Part shown: positions 19,535 to 46,102 of the stretch, in pieces
Position numbering within the stretch: position 1 is the stretch's first letter
Layout: the number at the start of each line of letters is the position of its first letter
Assembly (NCBI GenBank): GCA_002731275.1
Contig: PCBK01000198.1
Location: 1 to 46,682, forward strand
Source: Deltaproteobacteria bacterium
GTDB lineage: Bacteria > Myxococcota_C > UBA6777
Direction of reading: 5' to 3'
DNA length: 46,682 nucleotides
The notes under the pieces: model-generated
What the model saw: only the letters and a program-made list of their open reading frames with translations
Database searches by the model: none
Told to the model about the DNA's origin: nothing
Made by a program: the position numbers and the translations under genes

Positions 19535-22500
19535 ATGTTTACACGCTCTCGAAGAGGCACACATTGGGGCATCGCAGGCTTTCTCCTGCTTTGTGCCCCT
19601 TTTGCCCTCGCTTCAGCTCCCTCACATACATGTCCAGATGCACAAAAACACCCGGGACACGGCTTCTCTAAAGCACACATGTCCAAATACAACGGTCCCG
19701 GTACACAAAAGAACACCAAAGATAAACCCCCCATCAAAGCCAAGGGAAAACCCGCAAAAGTCGATGTCGTCTCCTTTACCACACGTGAAGGGACCTGGAT
19801 GAACCTCACCCTCTCGCCTGATGGTAAGTGGCTCGTCTTCGACTTGCTCGGCGATATCTACAAAATGTCCAGCAAAGGCGGCGACGCAAAGCGGCTGACA
19901 AAAGGCACAGCCTGGGACACACAGCCACGCTTCTCGCCTGATGGAAAGTGGCTCGTCTTCACAAGCGACCGCAGTGGTAGCGCCAACACCTGGATGATGG
20001 ATGTACAAGGCAAACAGCTCCGCCAACTCACACACAACCACGCCATCGTCACAAACAGTCCAGTCTTTTCACCTGATGGCCAACACGTGATCACACGACG
20101 ACGCATCACGGACCGCAGAAGTATCGGTGTTGTCGAACTATGGATGCACCACATCCTCGGCGGAAAGGGTCTTCAACTGACCTCAGGGAAACGAATTGGG
20201 GATGCCAATGAGCCGGCCTTCTCGCCTGATGGAAAATATCTCTACTTTTCGACACGTGGACGACATCGCTACAACAGAAACCCACACCAAGGGATCTGGA
20301 ATCTTCAGCGACTCGATATCCAAAGTGGCCATCGCAAGATGATCTCTCGTGGCGCGTCGCGTCCCCATCCTTCTCCTGATGGTCGTTATATCTCATTGAT
20401 CCGCCGCATCGGAAAAACATCTGCGATCCAACTTCACGATCTACGCACTGGTGCAGAACACACACTCACGAATATCCTCGATCGCGACCAACAAGAAGGC
20501 TTCGCGATGAATGGAACCTACCCTGCGATGGCCTGGAGTCGCGACAGTAAGATGTTGTACTTTACAGCCAAAGGTACCTTCTGGAAGCTGTCCATCAAAA
20601 ACAAAAAGCTCACCAAGCTCCCCTTCAAGGCAAAGGTCGAACAGCACGTCACGAGGGCACTACGTACAACCAGGAGAGTTGGACAAAAAGCCTTTCAGCT
20701 CAAAATATTGCGTTGGCCACAGCGCTCCTCCAAGGGAGACAGAATGCTCTATGGAGCGATCGGACGCATCTACAGCGTCGCGTGGCCTCCCAAACGCAAA
20801 CAACCCAAAGAGATCAAGCACAAAGATGCATTAGCCTACGCCCCAGCCTTTGCACGTGATGGACGAACTTTCGCCTACGTGACGTGGTCTGATACAAAAC
20901 GCGGCCATGTGTGGGTACGTTCATTTGGCAAAGATGGCACCCCCACACCTCCAAAACGTATCACCCAATACAGCAGCATGTATCTCCACCCCTCTTTCTC
21001 ACCAGACCAAAGCAAGCTGGTATTTATCAGCGCAAGTGGTGCTGACCGTCGTGGCCTTCCGCTCTCTTACCAACCCTGGCTTCAGCTTCAAGTCGCAGAC
21101 CTGAAGACCGGCAAGATCCGCTCGATTCTCACACTGAGAAGCCACGGTTCACTCAGCCGCAACCCTCAGCCACGTTTCTCGAAAGATGGCAAACGCATCT
21201 TCTTCACACGTATCTCCTACAAACGTTATAGAGGTTATCGTCATCTGTGCTCGGTCAGATTGGATGGTAGCGATGAAAAGAAACACTTCTCCGTGTACGC
21301 CGGTGAAGAGATGGAGCTGTCTCCCGACCAAAAGTGGCTGTTATTCAAACACCTGCACCAGATCTACGTGATGCCCACACCTCCCTTGCGCAGCAAACCC
21401 ATCTCACTGCGCGTGATCGACGGACGTATCGCTGGCAGTCCTTGGCCCATCGTCAAACTCTCGAAGATCGGAGGCAATTGGCCATCATGGGGACCAAACA
21501 ACCAGATCCTCTGGAGTCTTGGACGAGAGATCTACACCCTCCCTCTCTCGAAAGTCATCGACAAGCTGCAAAAAGACGCGAAGAAGCGCACACAAAAAGC
21601 GCTCAAACGCTACACCAAACAACGCCCCAAAACACAACTCTCCTCCACACCAAAAAAAGCTCCCTCCACCCAACAAACACCCTCCGCCAAGAGCAAACCG
21701 ACCTCTCGTCCCGTCAAGCCCACTAAAAAGTCGAAAAAAACAAAGAAGGCAAAAAAGAAGAAGAAAGACGCCCTGAAGCCGACAGTCCACAAAATCAGAC
21801 ATATCGTCAAGAGCGCAGAACCTTCGGGCTGTATCGCGCTGACACACGCGACGATTATCACGATGCACGGCAAACAAGTGATCCAGGACGGGACGCTGGT
21901 GTTGAATGGTTCAAGGATCCATTGGATGGGACCAAGCAAAAAGGCAAAGCTGCTCGGATACTGCAAAAAGATGGACATGAAAGGGAAATATATCATCCCC
22001 GGTTTCATCGATGTCCACTCACATATGCACTACAACGCGCTTGAGGTCTTCCCCAAGAGTTCGTGGGAATACTACGCAAATCTGGCTTATGGAGTCACGA
22101 CAACACACGATCCCTCAGCGAGCACGGAGCTGGTCTTTGGTCAATCAGAGATGGTCCGTGCCGGTGTGATGGTTGGACCAAGGATATACTCAACTGGATT
22201 CATCTTGTACGGAGCGGAGAACACACATAAAGCGATCGTCAGGGGTCTTCAGGATGCAAGACACCACATGAAGCGATTGAAAAAGCTCGGCGCGTTCAGT
22301 GTAAAAAGCTATATGCAGCCAAGACGCATCCAGCGACAATGGGTACTCCAGGCCGCGAGAGAAGAAAAGATGCTCGTCTACCCCGAAGGTGGTGGCAATC
22401 TCCAGATGAACCTGAATATGGTACTCGACGGTCACACAGGTATCGAACATGCCTTCCCAGTCGCGCCACTGTACAAAGATGTCGTCCAACTCGTCGCACA

Positions 22501-23062
22501 AAGCAAGACCGGTTACACACCAACCTTCCTGGTCGCTTATGGTGGATTGTCCGGGGAGATCTTCTTTTACCAACATGACACTGTTTGGAATAACAAGAAA
22601 CTCACCCAATTTTACCCACCAAGATTGCTCAACGCCCGCGCGAGATGGCCCAAACACATGGTAAGAGATAACGACTGGCACTTCCAAAAGATCGCAGAAT
22701 CCGCCAAAAAGATTATCCGCAGTGGTGGACAGGTGCAGATCGGCGCGCACGGTCAGCTGCAAGGCTTGGGCGTCCACTGGGAGATCTTCTCACTCGCCAA
22801 AGGCGGTTTGACACCTCATGAGGTTCTGAGGGCCGCAACTTACCACGGCGCAACATACCTCGGTCTTCAACACGATATCGGCAGTATCCAAAAAGGAAAA
22901 CTCGCGGATCTCGTGATCCTCGACAAGAACCCACTCAAAGACATCCATCACATCCGCGCAATCCGCTACGTGGTAAAGAACGGCTTCATCTATAAAGGAC
23001 ACTCCATGGATCGTGTCTGGCCCACAACACAAAAGCGCCCCACCTTCTTCTGGCAGCAATAA
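19535..23062 (+). CDS. TolB-type beta-propeller fused to amidohydrolase
   Basis: An 1175-residue exported enzyme. A signal peptide (~1-28, ending ALASA) is followed by PD40/WD40-like TolB propeller repeats (many FSPDGKWL/FSPDGKYL motifs, ~85-640). Next is a very basic Lys/Pro/Ser/Thr linker of ~80 residues (~669-752). The C-terminal amidohydrolase domain starts with its small beta-sandwich. Its barrel has DVHSHMH (metal HxH, ~826), SVKSYMQ (candidate bridging Lys), GIEHAF, GAHGQL, and the closing KGKLADLVILDKNP. Similar fusions are annotated as periplasmic amidohydrolases or imidazolonepropionase-like proteins, but the substrate is unknown. GGAGG precedes the ATG by 9 nt. It is transcribed alone toward the gene-free interval. 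Confidence 0.88.
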   Translation: MFTRSRRGTHWGIAGFLLLCAPFALASAPSHTCPDAQKHPGHGFSKAHMSKYNGPGTQKNTKDKPPIKAKGKPAKVDVVSFTTREGTWMNLTLSPDGKWLVFDLLGDIYKMSSKGGDAKRLTKGTAWDTQPRFSPDGKWLVFTSDRSGSANTWMMDVQGKQLRQLTHNHAIVTNSPVFSPDGQHVITRRRITDRRSIGVVELWMHHILGGKGLQLTSGKRIGDANEPAFSPDGKYLYFSTRGRHRYNRNPHQGIWNLQRLDIQSGHRKMISRGASRPHPSPDGRYISLIRRIGKTSAIQLHDLRTGAEHTLTNILDRDQQEGFAMNGTYPAMAWSRDSKMLYFTAKGTFWKLSIKNKKLTKLPFKAKVEQHVTRALRTTRRVGQKAFQLKILRWPQRSSKGDRMLYGAIGRIYSVAWPPKRKQPKEIKHKDALAYAPAFARDGRTFAYVTWSDTKRGHVWVRSFGKDGTPTPPKRITQYSSMYLHPSFSPDQSKLVFISASGADRRGLPLSYQPWLQLQVADLKTGKIRSILTLRSHGSLSRNPQPRFSKDGKRIFFTRISYKRYRGYRHLCSVRLDGSDEKKHFSVYAGEEMELSPDQKWLLFKHLHQIYVMPTPPLRSKPISLRVIDGRIAGSPWPIVKLSKIGGNWPSWGPNNQILWSLGREIYTLPLSKVIDKLQKDAKKRTQKALKRYTKQRPKTQLSSTPKKAPSTQQTPSAKSKPTSRPVKPTKKSKKTKKAKKKKKDALKPTVHKIRHIVKSAEPSGCIALTHATIITMHGKQVIQDGTLVLNGSRIHWMGPSKKAKLLGYCKKMDMKGKYIIPGFIDVHSHMHYNALEVFPKSSWEYYANLAYGVTTTHDPSASTELVFGQSEMVRAGVMVGPRIYSTGFILYGAENTHKAIVRGLQDARHHMKRLKKLGAFSVKSYMQPRRIQRQWVLQAAREEKMLVYPEGGGNLQMNLNMVLDGHTGIEHAFPVAPLYKDVVQLVAQSKTGYTPTFLVAYGGLSGEIFFYQHDTVWNNKKLTQFYPPRLLNARARWPKHMVRDNDWHFQKIAESAKKIIRSGGQVQIGAHGQLQGLGVHWEIFSLAKGGLTPHEVLRAATYHGATYLGLQHDIGSIQKGKLADLVILDKNPLKDIHHIRAIRYVVKNGFIYKGHSMDRVWPTTQKRPTFFWQQ

Positions 23063-23464: not shown

Positions 23465-23931
23465 GATCGATCTAGTGGGATCGCCAATCAGAAAAAGATG
23501 TTGACAAGGGGGAGCGTGGAGAAATGATCGAGGTGATCACTTTTAATCTCTTGATTTTATGTATCTTTCAAGGAATCATGGGCGATCTTTACGGATCGAT
23601 CCATCCAAAACAGAAAAAATGGCCATAGGATACTTTTTCGATCTTTGCAGATCGATCGTGATCCAAAAAAGAGCGAGCACTGCATTTCGGACAAAGGATC
23701 AAAATGATCGAAAATTGATCATTTATTTCTCTTACTTTTCAAACCTATACACGATCAAGATGCGATCGCACGCGATCTTTCCTCATGATCCCGCTTTTTG
23801 GCCTGGTTTTGTGTTGGTGTCCGGATTTCGATCCTGAAAGATCGCGATCGGAAAGAATCGATCTTGATCATTGGCGATCATTTACAGGATCGAAGTCCAT
23901 TTGACATCAAAAACCTTTTCTTTTCATAGAG
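23465..23931. repeat. periodic GATC array beside the origin
   Basis: I count 27 GATC sites in 467 bp, where under two are expected by chance. They fall in clusters of 2-4 sites spaced mostly 9-11 bp (one helical turn): 23465/69/79, 23526/35, 23584/94/98, 23640/50/54/60, 23697/706/717, 23753/64/74/87, 23830/40/46, 23860/66/76/88. Successive clusters start about 56-57 bp apart (23469, 23526, 23584, 23640, 23697, 23753, with 23866 in phase after one irregular unit). Between clusters the DNA is AT-rich. Three more GATCs lie at 24183-24199. It could bind a methylation-dependent initiation regulator (SeqA/Dam-like logic) or an unknown origin-binding protein. Confidence 0.85.
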
Positions 23932-24033
23932 ATCATCGACAACTCCCCTTACGGACGTCTTGCCTTTGTATCTTGTAGTCTTTTGATTTTCCAAGACATT
24001 CGGAAAACCAAGTCAAAAAATTCATTTTTTTCG

Positions 24034-24207: not shown

Positions 24208-24624
24208 CGCTTCAGAAGCAGGTCAACATCCCCACAAGCGAAAATGGCAAATACCAGTCTGAAATTCGATGAGCATTTGTGCAAAAATGACATCAGACAA
24301 TTTCGCCCACGCAACCACCGCATACAAATAAAATACTGATATACATAGATTTTTCAAATCGTACAAGGACCAAAGTAGACACAAAACTTCTGAAAAGAAG
24401 GTCACTGCAGGCCAATATGAAAAACCTATAAAAATCAAACAGATACTCTCTTTGTCGGAGTTATCCACAGAGCTGGGGATAAAGCTGGGGAAAAGTCACT
24501 TTTTCGTAAGCCTATCAATAGGTTGTAATTACCTATCAATAACAATTCATTTGCACATAATTTGCTACCACTTGGAAAATCCACTCCCTTTCAAAATGAA
24601 AAGGAAAACATGGAGATAAGGTAG

Positions 24625-24657
24625 TTATCCACAGAGTTATCCACAGGCTTTTCCACA
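24625..24657 (+). promoter_or_regulatory. DnaA-box triplet, 12-bp spacing
   Basis: Boxes at 24625-24633 and 24637-24645 are perfect TTATCCACA, and 24649-24657 is TTTTCCACA. Centres are 12 bp apart and all have the same orientation, which suits cooperative DnaA filament assembly. Confidence 0.85.
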
Positions 24658-24741
24658 GCTGAACATAAAAACAGCACATAACTAGCGTAAAAAACGAATA
24701 AAAACAAAGCGATAGGTATGCACATTTAATCCTAATTTGGT

Positions 24742-24815
24742 TGTGGATAACTCTGTGGAAACTGTGGATAACTCTGTGGATAACTCTGTGGATAACTCAA
24801 GCGACCTGTGGAAAA
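24742..24815 (-). promoter_or_regulatory. DnaA-box group in inverse orientation
   Basis: Perfect TGTGGATAA at 24742, 24763, 24775 and 24787, with variants TGTGGAAAC at 24754 and TGTGGAAAA at 24807. The three at 24763-24795 are spaced 12 bp apart. All face opposite to the boxes on either side. Confidence 0.85.
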
Positions 24816-24833
24816 GTGAGCACCGGGAGAAAG

Positions 24834-24939
24834 TTTTCCACACATGTCCACAAGATGTCCACAGGCTTTTCCACAGTTTTTTCCACAGTTTTTGAGACAA
24901 AAGAACATTCACTTTCGAGCAGTTACAGAGTTATCCACA
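24834..24939 (+). promoter_or_regulatory. right DnaA-box group next to the unwinding element
   Basis: Weak boxes TTTTCCACA (24834, 24867, 24879) and ATGTCCACA (24844, 24855) lead to the perfect box TTATCCACA at 24931-24939. The 24855/24867/24879 trio again has 12-bp steps. Weak boxes between strong ones are typical of sites filled only by ATP-DnaA; that is general knowledge of origins, not shown here. Confidence 0.75.
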
Positions 24940-24954
24940 GGTAAAACCCTTCCC

Positions 24955-24969
24955 CTACTAATACTACTA
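24955..24969 (-). promoter_or_regulatory. DnaA-trio unwinding element
   Basis: The top strand reads CTA CTA ATA CTA CTA, so the bottom strand read 3' to 5' is GAT GAT TAT GAT GAT, matching the 3'-(G/A)AT-5' trio consensus described for bacterial basal unwinding systems. It begins 15 bp after the perfect box at 24931 with a GC-rich stretch (CCCTTCCCC) between, and is followed by ~50 bp of AT-rich DNA. Confidence 0.7.
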
Positions 24970-25000
24970 AAGAGATATAATTTAAATAATTTTTATTCTA

Positions 25001-25018
25001 GTAAGAAAATTTTCTTAC
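25001..25018. repeat. 18-bp perfect palindrome at edge of AT-rich element
   Basis: GTAAGAAAATTTTCTTAC is a perfect palindrome that closes the AT-rich stretch after the DnaA-trios. It could be a binding site for an origin protein or a cruciform-prone boundary. Confidence 0.7.
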
Positions 25019-25719: not shown

Positions 25720-26505
25720 TCAGGCTTTTGCTGCGACGGGTTTGGCTTTGACCACCTCAGAACTGTCTTCTTTCATGCGCTTTTGTCTTACCAAGACGTC
25801 TACGTAAGTTAAAGAACCCAAGACAAGCGCGCGTTCATCCTGCGTCAACGAAGGATCTTGAAATTCGAGAGTGTAACTCTTCATCCCTGTCACCAGACGG
25901 CGTGCGTCTATGAGTTTGCGGCGAAAGCGTCCGACCTGCTTGCTGCCTTTTGACACGCGATACTGGAGACCAAAGGGTCTTCTGCGGATGGTTCCCCAAC
26001 GCTTGCCAGCCGCATCCCACAACATATATCGTCTATCACCCCACAACACTGATTGAGCTGACTCGCCAAGTAAACGAGCTTCGTCTCCTGTCATGTCATA
26101 GATGGAAAAGACCGCACGAAATAACGCCCAACCTTTGACCGCTTTGATCACCAATTCGTTGTTTTTGTCGTGGATTTCGATGACTGAAGATGCACGTGAT
26201 GAGAGGAACGTACGTACACTCACAATAGAGAGAAAGAAGAGACCAACAATGGCCAACCCTAGCCCAATGAGCTTTCCTGTGGAGTCAGCGCCTATCAGCG
26301 CCTGGTAGACACCTCCAACGACGAGTCCTACCTCCAGCAAGAGACCAAAGATCCACAACACAGGCGACATCCATGCCGGGTGAAATGTAATCTCACCAAT
26401 CTGCTCACCTGTGTCGTCGAGCAATTGAAACTTTGTATTCAATGACGGGAACCAGCGAAATTTTGACTGGACTGTAAAATTGTCCGCCTGAAGCAATTCG
26501 TTCAT
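25720..26505 (-). CDS. membrane protein with LURP-one/scramblase-like domain
   Basis: A 261-residue protein; AGGAGG stands 8 nt before the ATG. A short N-terminal beta segment (FQLLDDTGEQIGEITFH) leads to two transmembrane helices (~48-66 and ~77-97). A C-terminal domain (~105-240) follows, with VIEIHDKNNELVIKA, YMLWDAAGKRWGTI and a final strand-rich part. The two 'D..G..(I/L)G' strands resemble tubby-like LURP-one-related/phospholipid-scramblase domains; this is a fold-level guess. It is the first gene right of the origin and leftward, that is, against the predicted fork. Confidence 0.6.
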   Translation of the reverse strand: MNELLQADNFTVQSKFRWFPSLNTKFQLLDDTGEQIGEITFHPAWMSPVLWIFGLLLEVGLVVGGVYQALIGADSTGKLIGLGLAIVGLFFLSIVSVRTFLSSRASSVIEIHDKNNELVIKAVKGWALFRAVFSIYDMTGDEARLLGESAQSVLWGDRRYMLWDAAGKRWGTIRRRPFGLQYRVSKGSKQVGRFRRKLIDARRLVTGMKSYTLEFQDPSLTQDERALVLGSLTYVDVLVRQKRMKEDSSEVVKAKPVAAKA

Positions 26506-43729: not shown

Positions 43730-45697
43730 CTACAAAAGGCACCCAGTCTTCCAACAGATGAGCAGGACGTTGCGGCCATTTTTTTTGATGCAAGAGAGCT
43801 TCTTTCGTGTGCTGGATGTTTTTGTCTCATTGCACGTGCGCAAGAGTTTTTCGATATCGAAGGTCTTTTGGAAGACGATCTTCTTCCTCCCCTGTTGTTG
43901 TCTCTTGAGCGTGAGGGTGTTTTGTCCTGACCACAACCTGATGCGACATCCGTGCTGACAATTTGGGAACGCAAATCCATCAATACTCGTATACGCCCAA
44001 GGACGCAGAGATAACTCGATAGGATAGCGCTTCCATCGTTGTTGAATGAGCTGTTTGGCTCTGTGTGGATGGACGCGAAAGCGAAATGAGCGACGTAGCT
44101 TTGCCTCTTTGGAGAGACAATGTGCTGTGTACCGTCCAGGTTTGAGCGTGCGTGAAGATGAAGAATCAAATGTCTCACTCCCCTCTTTGTCGAGAGAGAG
44201 TGTTGGGCAGGGAGGTGTCAACTCAAAGCGCACGGTGATCGCTTTGTAGGTGCGAATGATCGTCCTTTTTGGTGCTCTATTACTATGTTTTTGTTTGCGA
44301 ATTTTATGAAATGATCTTCTGGGGATCGGTTTTGAGGGGAGCACTGTCCGGGGAGATACAGGTTGTGTCGCGGTTTTGACGGGGTGAGGCTTTTTGTGTT
44401 GTGTCGGCGGGATTTTGCGAATGATCTTTTTGATCACACGTCTCGGGAGGGTGATATCGGGCTGTGTGAGATCTGATTCAATGGAATCTTGTGAGCGAAA
44501 GAAGTAAAAGATCGCGATGGCTGAGCTGAAGAGGATCACGAGGAGGAGTGGGTAAAGGAGTGAGTTGGAGAGGTAGACAGGCGGTTGATCTGTGTTGGGA
44601 GATCGATGTTGATCGGTTGGATACCAAGCCAACAGCGGTGTCTCTTGGGGTGCCTCTTCTGGGATCGTGAAGGTCAAAGGATCCAGATCGATGTGGTTGA
44701 GTTGGGTAAGGCACTCACTGAGATCGGAGAACCGATCATCTGGCTGATAAGCCAGGCAACATCGCAATAATGCTCGGAGTGTTGGAGGCAATGGGATGGG
44801 GATCAGTTTGAGCGGTTCTGCATGCAGGCTATAGAGGTGGTAGAGGTTGTCGGCATCGAAAGGAAGCGTATTGGAGAGCATTTGGTAAAGGATGATCCCA
44901 AGGGAGAAGATATCTGAGCGTTGATCAAGGGCTTTTCCCCACGCTTGCTCAGGCGACATGTAACAAAGTGTCCCGAGGATAACGCCAGAGGTGGAGATAT
45001 GTGGTGTAGAGTGTGAGGTATCTTTTGAGAGTCCAAAGTCAAAGAGTTTGGCAAAGGGTTGTCCGTTGTCATCGTAAGTTAACATGACATTGTCTGGTTT
45101 GAGATCGCGGTGGATCACACCGATCTCATGAGCTTCCAAGAGGGCTTGTGTGATCTGTCGAAAGATCGTGAGGGTGTGAGAGAGTGGGAGGGTCTGATCA
45201 TGGAGGATCTCTTGGAGTGTGTTGCCTTTGAGCAACTCCACGATCATGAATTGTGCGATCAGGATGTTGTTTTCTTTGTGCTCGCCGTATCCGTAAACAC
45301 GTACACTGTGTGGGTGGTTGAGTCTACTGAGGATTTGGACTTCTCTGTGGAAACGATCTCGAAGGATCGGATCGGTGATCTCTTTGTTGAGCTTGATCGC
45401 GAGTTCTTGGGGAGGCTGTGTATTGTCTAGTTGGGCAAGTACACGATAGACTTCTCCCATCCCTCCCCCGCCGAGCCATTCTCTCACAAAGTAGATCTGA
45501 TCATCTTGTTTGAGGCACTTTCCGGAGAGTGGTCCTGTGAGGATTTTTTTGCATAATTTACAATGAGAATTAGGGGGTTGGATATGTTGGCAGGTGGGAG
45601 CAGTGCACTGAAAGAGTGCGTCGAGAGGATGTTGGCAGTGGGGGCATTGATCCTCAAGAGAGCTTAGTGGCTGTTTACAATGAAGGCATGTGATCAA
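43730..45697 (-). CDS. zinc-ribbon Ser/Thr protein kinase
   Basis: About 655 residues. The start is chosen at TTG 45697 with AGGA 8 nt upstream; TTG 45721 in frame is the longer option. The N-terminal double zinc ribbon has four Cys pairs (CLHC, CPHC, CTAPTC, CKLC; first ~50 residues). The kinase domain (~75-330) has GGGGMGEVY, AIKLNKE, HRDLKPDN, DFGLSK and MSPEQA, all catalytic residues intact. One membrane helix (~380-400) is followed by a basic linker and a C-terminal outer domain with PEGA-like strands and Cys pairs. The zinc ribbon at the cytoplasmic end resembles DZANK/double-zinc-ribbon kinases. It is upstream of and probably co-transcribed with rsmG. Confidence 0.9.
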   Translation of the reverse strand: MITCLHCKQPLSSLEDQCPHCQHPLDALFQCTAPTCQHIQPPNSHCKLCKKILTGPLSGKCLKQDDQIYFVREWLGGGGMGEVYRVLAQLDNTQPPQELAIKLNKEITDPILRDRFHREVQILSRLNHPHSVRVYGYGEHKENNILIAQFMIVELLKGNTLQEILHDQTLPLSHTLTIFRQITQALLEAHEIGVIHRDLKPDNVMLTYDDNGQPFAKLFDFGLSKDTSHSTPHISTSGVILGTLCYMSPEQAWGKALDQRSDIFSLGIILYQMLSNTLPFDADNLYHLYSLHAEPLKLIPIPLPPTLRALLRCCLAYQPDDRFSDLSECLTQLNHIDLDPLTFTIPEEAPQETPLLAWYPTDQHRSPNTDQPPVYLSNSLLYPLLLVILFSSAIAIFYFFRSQDSIESDLTQPDITLPRRVIKKIIRKIPPTQHKKPHPVKTATQPVSPRTVLPSKPIPRRSFHKIRKQKHSNRAPKRTIIRTYKAITVRFELTPPCPTLSLDKEGSETFDSSSSRTLKPGRYTAHCLSKEAKLRRSFRFRVHPHRAKQLIQQRWKRYPIELSLRPWAYTSIDGFAFPNCQHGCRIRLWSGQNTLTLKRQQQGRKKIVFQKTFDIEKLLRTCNETKTSSTRKKLSCIKKNGRNVLLICWKTGCLL

Positions 45698-46102
45698 GAT
45701 TCTCTTCCTTTGTTTACCCAATGAGCGTGTTGGGTATGATATCGCAAATGCATTGTGATCAGAAGCGGTTTTTCAGGAGAGGATCGCCTCAAGCCTGTCT
45801 GTTTACTCTTGTAACATTTTATGATGTATAGGGTTTTGCCATGTCTTCAGTGTTGGGTATACGATCGCGTAACTGTATCACTGCAGAGGAATCACTTCAT
45901 TATATATAGGCAGTAGAGACATTGTTTCAATGATGTTGTTTTTCTCCTTGTGAGGCTTCTTTGATCTTTTTTGACGAGAAAAAAGGGGAGAATGTGTGAA
46001 ATGTGCCCCAGAATGTCCTCTATGGCTCTTCTGAGAGGTGAAAAAAATGATACGTTAAGGTGATGTTTTCTTTGGTAAAATGAGAAAGGTTAATTTTTAT
46101 TG

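Follow-up and report, generated by a model that had tools for sequence, protein, structure and literature searches.

A compact array of GATC sites lies beside a chromosomal replication origin in the window, the whole 46,682-bp stretch of DNA analysed here, which comes from an uncultured bacterium resembling myxobacteria, and raises the question of which protein would read such sites in a lineage without SeqA. The array occupies positions 23465-23934 (no strand assigned), is intergenic and contains 27 GATC sites, mostly in pairs 10 bp apart, the first starting at 23465 and the last at 23931. An earlier note on this DNA had reported 27 GATCs in 23465-23931, with clusters starting at 23469, 23526, 23584, 23640, 23697 and 23753 and 23866 again in phase; the count and all of these positions were exact on recount. 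Given the rate of 1 GATC per 147 bp in the source genome (G000; 490 kb sampled), the Poisson probability of 27 GATCs in 470 bp is ~2e-16, and 2000 dinucleotide-preserving shuffles of the array gave a mean of 6.8 sites and a maximum of 14. The genomic rate is 0.93 of the Markov expectation, so GATC has no general enrichment in this genome, and intergenic-like DNA of G000 shows a background of 1 GATC per 257 bp. The runner-up 467-bp stretches in the sampled 490 kb contained 19 (an intergenic array) and 16 (coding) GATCs. The exceptional density noted earlier therefore stood, as nothing in 490 kb is as dense, but arrays of this kind are not confined to the origin, since two more intergenic ones were found.

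Other readings of the array and of GATC-rich DNA in the window were rejected. No counterpart of the 92-aa ORF at 23559-23837 turned up in the orthologous loci, which argues against coding DNA, and an RNA element was dismissed because the only Rfam match in the window is one tRNA. The dense GATCs at 44237-45721 are not a second array, since they lie in a Ser/Thr kinase gene and are codon-biased. This kinase gene (43730-45721) adjoins rsmG and reaches up to 16 GATCs per 467 bp; its high GATC content is a matter of codon usage and the sites are not phased.

The sites in the array follow a rule of one GATC per helical turn, in pairs and triplets such as the GATC-N6-GATC-N6-GATC at 23640-23663 (no strand assigned), with spacings of 4, 6 and 14 also present. 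In G000, the three arrays (∼1.3 kb) contain 20 GATC pairs at exactly 10 bp, compared with 14 such pairs across 462 kb of background, in which GATC spacing instead reflects the codon period of 3. A sequence logo around the array sites of G000 displayed a second GATC at +/-10 bp alone (GATC-N6-GATC), a mild preference at most in the directly flanking base, and no consensus beyond GATC-N6-GATC. The earlier note had described a two-level periodicity. Its 10-bp helical spacing was confirmed; the 56-57-bp super-period, with a p of 0.0005 against uniform placement, became marginal (p 0.03-0.05) against nulls that keep the clustering. This distance is a non-integral number of 10.5-bp turns, and the super-period is missing both from the two other arrays of G000 and from the arrays of relatives, which have 22 or 23 bp instead. 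We therefore kept the one-turn rule and dropped the super-period as a general design feature. The suggestion of several GATCs per turn was likewise replaced by one per turn.

The origin adjoining the array was confirmed. A tract of 13 strict TTWTCCACA DnaA boxes on both strands (24461-24939) begins 527 bp from the array, and the core of the origin (24623-24995) aligns on the same strand with that of the relative G001 (L016:13508-13900). The box at 24931 is followed by a DnaA-trio-like sequence, CTACTAATACTACTA, on the plus strand (24955-24969), with a matching layout in G001, and by an AT-rich stretch (24950-25010, no strand assigned; ∼80% A+T) that is likely the duplex unwinding element. The DnaA-trio is part of the basal unwinding system, and the order of box, spacer, trio and AT-rich stretch is identical in G000 and G001. 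Cumulative GC skew declines as far as ∼25 kb, stays level until 33 kb and climbs thereafter, placing the minimum within 24-33 kb. The DnaA boxes, trio and AT-rich stretch together are a clear oriC. It is flanked on the left by a gene for a TolB-like propeller plus amidohydrolase (19535-23062, plus strand), whose orthologues adjoin the origin in G002 and G004, and on the right by a gene for a weakly scramblase-like membrane protein (25720-26505, minus strand), which served as the anchor for locating orthologous origins. The dnaA gene of G000 lies in a separate place, on contig C35 away from the array, next to genes that resemble dnaN and recF and that we named from their sequences. It was discarded as a rival origin because no DnaA boxes were found around it; the ∼690 bp upstream of dnaA contain 7 GATCs and no array.

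Searches with the right flanking gene found orthologues in only four of the genomes searched, all of the same family and deposited as Myxococcota, Myxococcales or Deltaproteobacteria metagenome-assembled genomes (MAGs). Together with G000, these relatives (G001-G004) gave a set of five MAGs of one family, 86-95% complete, in which G001 and G003 belong to one genus and G002 and G004 to another. DnaA-box clusters are present at the orthologous origin in all four relatives. An origin-side GATC array was found in G001 (15 GATCs in ∼160 bp) and G003 (21 GATCs in 268 bp), and none at the orthologous origins of G002 and G004. Additional DnaA-box clusters flank the right flanking gene on both sides (L016:14793-17000 in G001; L018:624-2750 in G003), and G001 also carries a 33-bp tandem repeat (CCAAAGGGAGCCCAGCGAACCTCTCTCTTAAGG) at L016:14329-14452, with its GATC array on one side and the outer DnaA-box cluster on the other.

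The presence of the array agrees with that of the Dam methylase. Using TIGR00571 above its curated cut-off, we found two Dam copies each in G000, G001 and G003, and none in G002 and G004, where the best scores were 28 bits. The search for Dam proposed in the earlier note was thus positive, and the Dam-bearing relatives have the array whereas the Dam-less ones do not. Dam presence shows a single change across the genera (g1 and g2 versus g3), giving one contrast rather than five, so in five MAGs of one family the agreement is weak as statistics. Dam1 matches both DpnM and the Dam of E. coli over its length, and the NVP and DPPY stretches are part of the alignment. No restriction gene was found among the part of the methylase neighbours scanned with Pfam. 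The GATCs upstream of Dam1 were considered as a promoter array and rejected; they are unphased and fall within the adjacent reading frame. The second Dam-like methylase (L070:10028-10888 on contig C127 of G000, L068:2295-3287 and L069:8598-9557) is orthologous in the three Dam-bearing genomes at 47-72% identity. SeqA (PF03925) is absent from all five genomes, as is MutH (PF02976); the E. coli controls were positive for both. GATC density is 1 per 85-97 in the Dam-less genomes versus 1 per 140-162 in the Dam-bearing G001 and G003, and close GATC triplets number 713 and 546 in the Dam-less genomes versus 107 in G001 and 71 in G003.

The arrays of the relatives differ from that of G000 in position and sequence. 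The array of G000 lies on the DnaA-box side of the core, 0.5 kb away; that of G001 lies opposite, beyond the AT-rich stretch at ∼0.1 kb, and that of G003 is placed much as in G001, its contig beginning just there. The G001 and G003 arrays have a common 22-bp rhythm, yet barely align with each other. Related origins thus do not have the 56-57-bp period and show a 22-bp rhythm instead. Given the opposite side, the other sequence and this rhythm, it appears to be GATC content near the origin that is kept, rather than an inherited sequence, and the array may have changed side and sequence either through relocation or through independent origin. Spacings also differ by genus (10; 5 and 22; 9 and 23), so that a single common binding geometry is not proven.

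A scan of the whole of G000 for phased triplets gave 51, with intergenic arrays at just three places: the origin, C9:10456-10671 upstream of a regulator gene, and C153:90958-91564 upstream of parA. All remaining phased triplets checked as possible arrays were inside ORFs. The C9 array (L021:10456-10671; 17 GATCs in 216 bp, mostly in 10-bp steps) is ∼480 bp upstream of the regulator gene, whose 158-aa product matches sigma-70 region 4. Upstream of the orthologue of this gene, G001 has an array made up of five 23-bp units, each with two GATCs, and G003 has two looser GATC clusters; no array was found there in G002 or in G004, in which 490 bp upstream are visible. Arrays at the regulator gene thus also occur in the Dam-bearing genomes and not in the Dam-less ones.

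Compared with the origin of E. coli and its Dam/SeqA system, the locus is similar in having a GATC-rich stretch at a DnaA-box origin and a Dam methylase in the genome. In vitro, SeqA preferentially binds GATCs that share a helical face. The array here lies beside the DnaA boxes rather than within them, has 27 GATCs phased by one turn compared with 11 in E. coli, and has no counterpart at the dnaA promoter; both SeqA and MutH are missing. The locus would act in a sequestration-like way yet falls outside the SeqA system, because the search for SeqA was negative. GATC enrichment adjoining oriC has been tied to Dam in gammaproteobacteria by the DistAMo study (PMC4786541). SeqA goes with Dam there; the array described here is compact and intergenic and belongs to a lineage of MAGs labelled Myxococcota or Deltaproteobacteria.

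We consider it somewhat more probable than the reverse that chromosome replication is under Dam-dependent control here, with the array as the cis element on which a putative reader other than SeqA or MutH acts. Dam would methylate the adenines of all 27 array GATCs, and the departure of a fork from oriC would leave the entire array hemimethylated at once. The putative reader would then bind GATC pairs of one-turn spacing from one side of the helix, assembling along the array; once bound, it would delay remethylation and keep the DnaA tract, ∼0.5 kb off, from refiring. At the two other arrays the same reader probably acts, tying expression of the regulator and of ParA to fork passage. The GATC-N6-GATC motif, Dam and the co-occurrence of array and Dam fit a putative protein that reads GATC pairs, probably by methylation state. 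The GATC-binding, methylation-sensing protein suggested in the earlier note is compatible with these features and with the missing SeqA; the super-period as its conserved design is not supported. Of a delay on hemimethylated DNA and a help on fully methylated DNA, we tentatively favour the former, because the DnaA origin is complete and the sites have no iteron consensus. As the arrays are clear of DnaA boxes, blocking would have to act over ∼0.1-0.5 kb.

Help on fully methylated DNA would resemble the Vibrio cholerae ori2/RctB system: a protein would bind GATC repeats only when fully methylated and aid initiation, with the delay in remethylation setting the timing. In ori2, 12-mers that contain GATC follow one another at spacings of 10-11 bp (PMC6090056), and RctB binding to them needs full methylation (PMC2865523). 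The relatives resemble ori2 in the regular recurrence of GATCs every 22 or 23 bp, and Dam is present here and accompanies the arrays. We nevertheless regard such licensing as unlikely, because the GATCs in the window lack an 11-12-mer consensus, no initiator gene adjoins the array among the genes scanned, and a full DnaA-type origin rich in boxes is found here, versus one DnaA box in ori2.

The arrays could also be transcription-control sites of a GATC-binding regulator, methylation-sensitive or not, with the origin array serving not initiation but some nearby promoter or nucleoid function. Long intergenic stretches upstream of the regulator gene and of parA do hold two of the three arrays. 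The origin array, however, lies between convergent genes (19535-23062, plus; 25720-26505, minus) and so has no obvious promoter to serve. The sites share no consensus beyond GATC, and the side of the array relative to the core varies by genus, yet it stays near the origin. This reading likewise seems unlikely to us.

Still more doubtful is a role in segregation, by which a partner of ParA would bind the sites, making the array a centromere-like element and the operator of parA. The case for it comes from the C153 array (L022:7957-8563), whose GATC-N6-GATC pairs lie immediately upstream of a ParA ATPase gene. Among the five genomes, close orthologues of this ParA (70-71% identity) occur only in G001 and G003, confining it to the Dam-bearing genomes, and a gene for a low-complexity partner protein follows (L022:4103-6853, 916 aa; L075:1445-2923, 492 aa). 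In G003, parA is ∼9 kb from the origin array and the partner gene sits between rsmG and parA, the usual place of parB. Both ends of the partner are conserved: the N-terminus is basic (DLGxLFGGK) and the C-terminus helical, the latter being modelled as all-helical with middling confidence (pLDDT 75). Against this role, parA has no upstream array in G001 and G003, so that the link between array and parA is seen in G000 alone; no canonical ParB partner was found, the partner protein matched no Pfam family or DNA-binding domain, and the model of its C-terminus gave no confident fold match.

It is very improbable that the arrays arose by chance, through expansion of repeats or as a side effect of mismatch repair: although tandem copies of recent date are present in the G001 arrays, the window array has no long repeat unit, density and 10-bp spacing are far above background, the whole-genome scan of G000 gave only three intergenic arrays, arrays occur beside three origins with differing sequence and placement, and MutH is found in none of the five genomes.

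Our preferred reading, Dam-dependent control of replication through a putative GATC-pair reader, bears on how often such control arose. To our knowledge, methylation-based origin sequestration is understood in detail only where SeqA exists, and a literature search of open papers turned up no similar array from bacteria other than those with SeqA, although this does not prove that there is none. In this other lineage, a compact DNA element and a Dam gene co-occur with a closely related Dam-less outgroup, which together make it directly testable whether replication control by hemimethylated GATC arose more than once, and a comparison of gene content could name the reader. It is possible, at somewhat short of even chances, that a lineage outside the gammaproteobacteria has made a second invention of this kind, in which its own reader, unrelated to SeqA and recognising GATC pairs one turn apart, would couple Dam to origin firing and to the expression of a regulator and of ParA.
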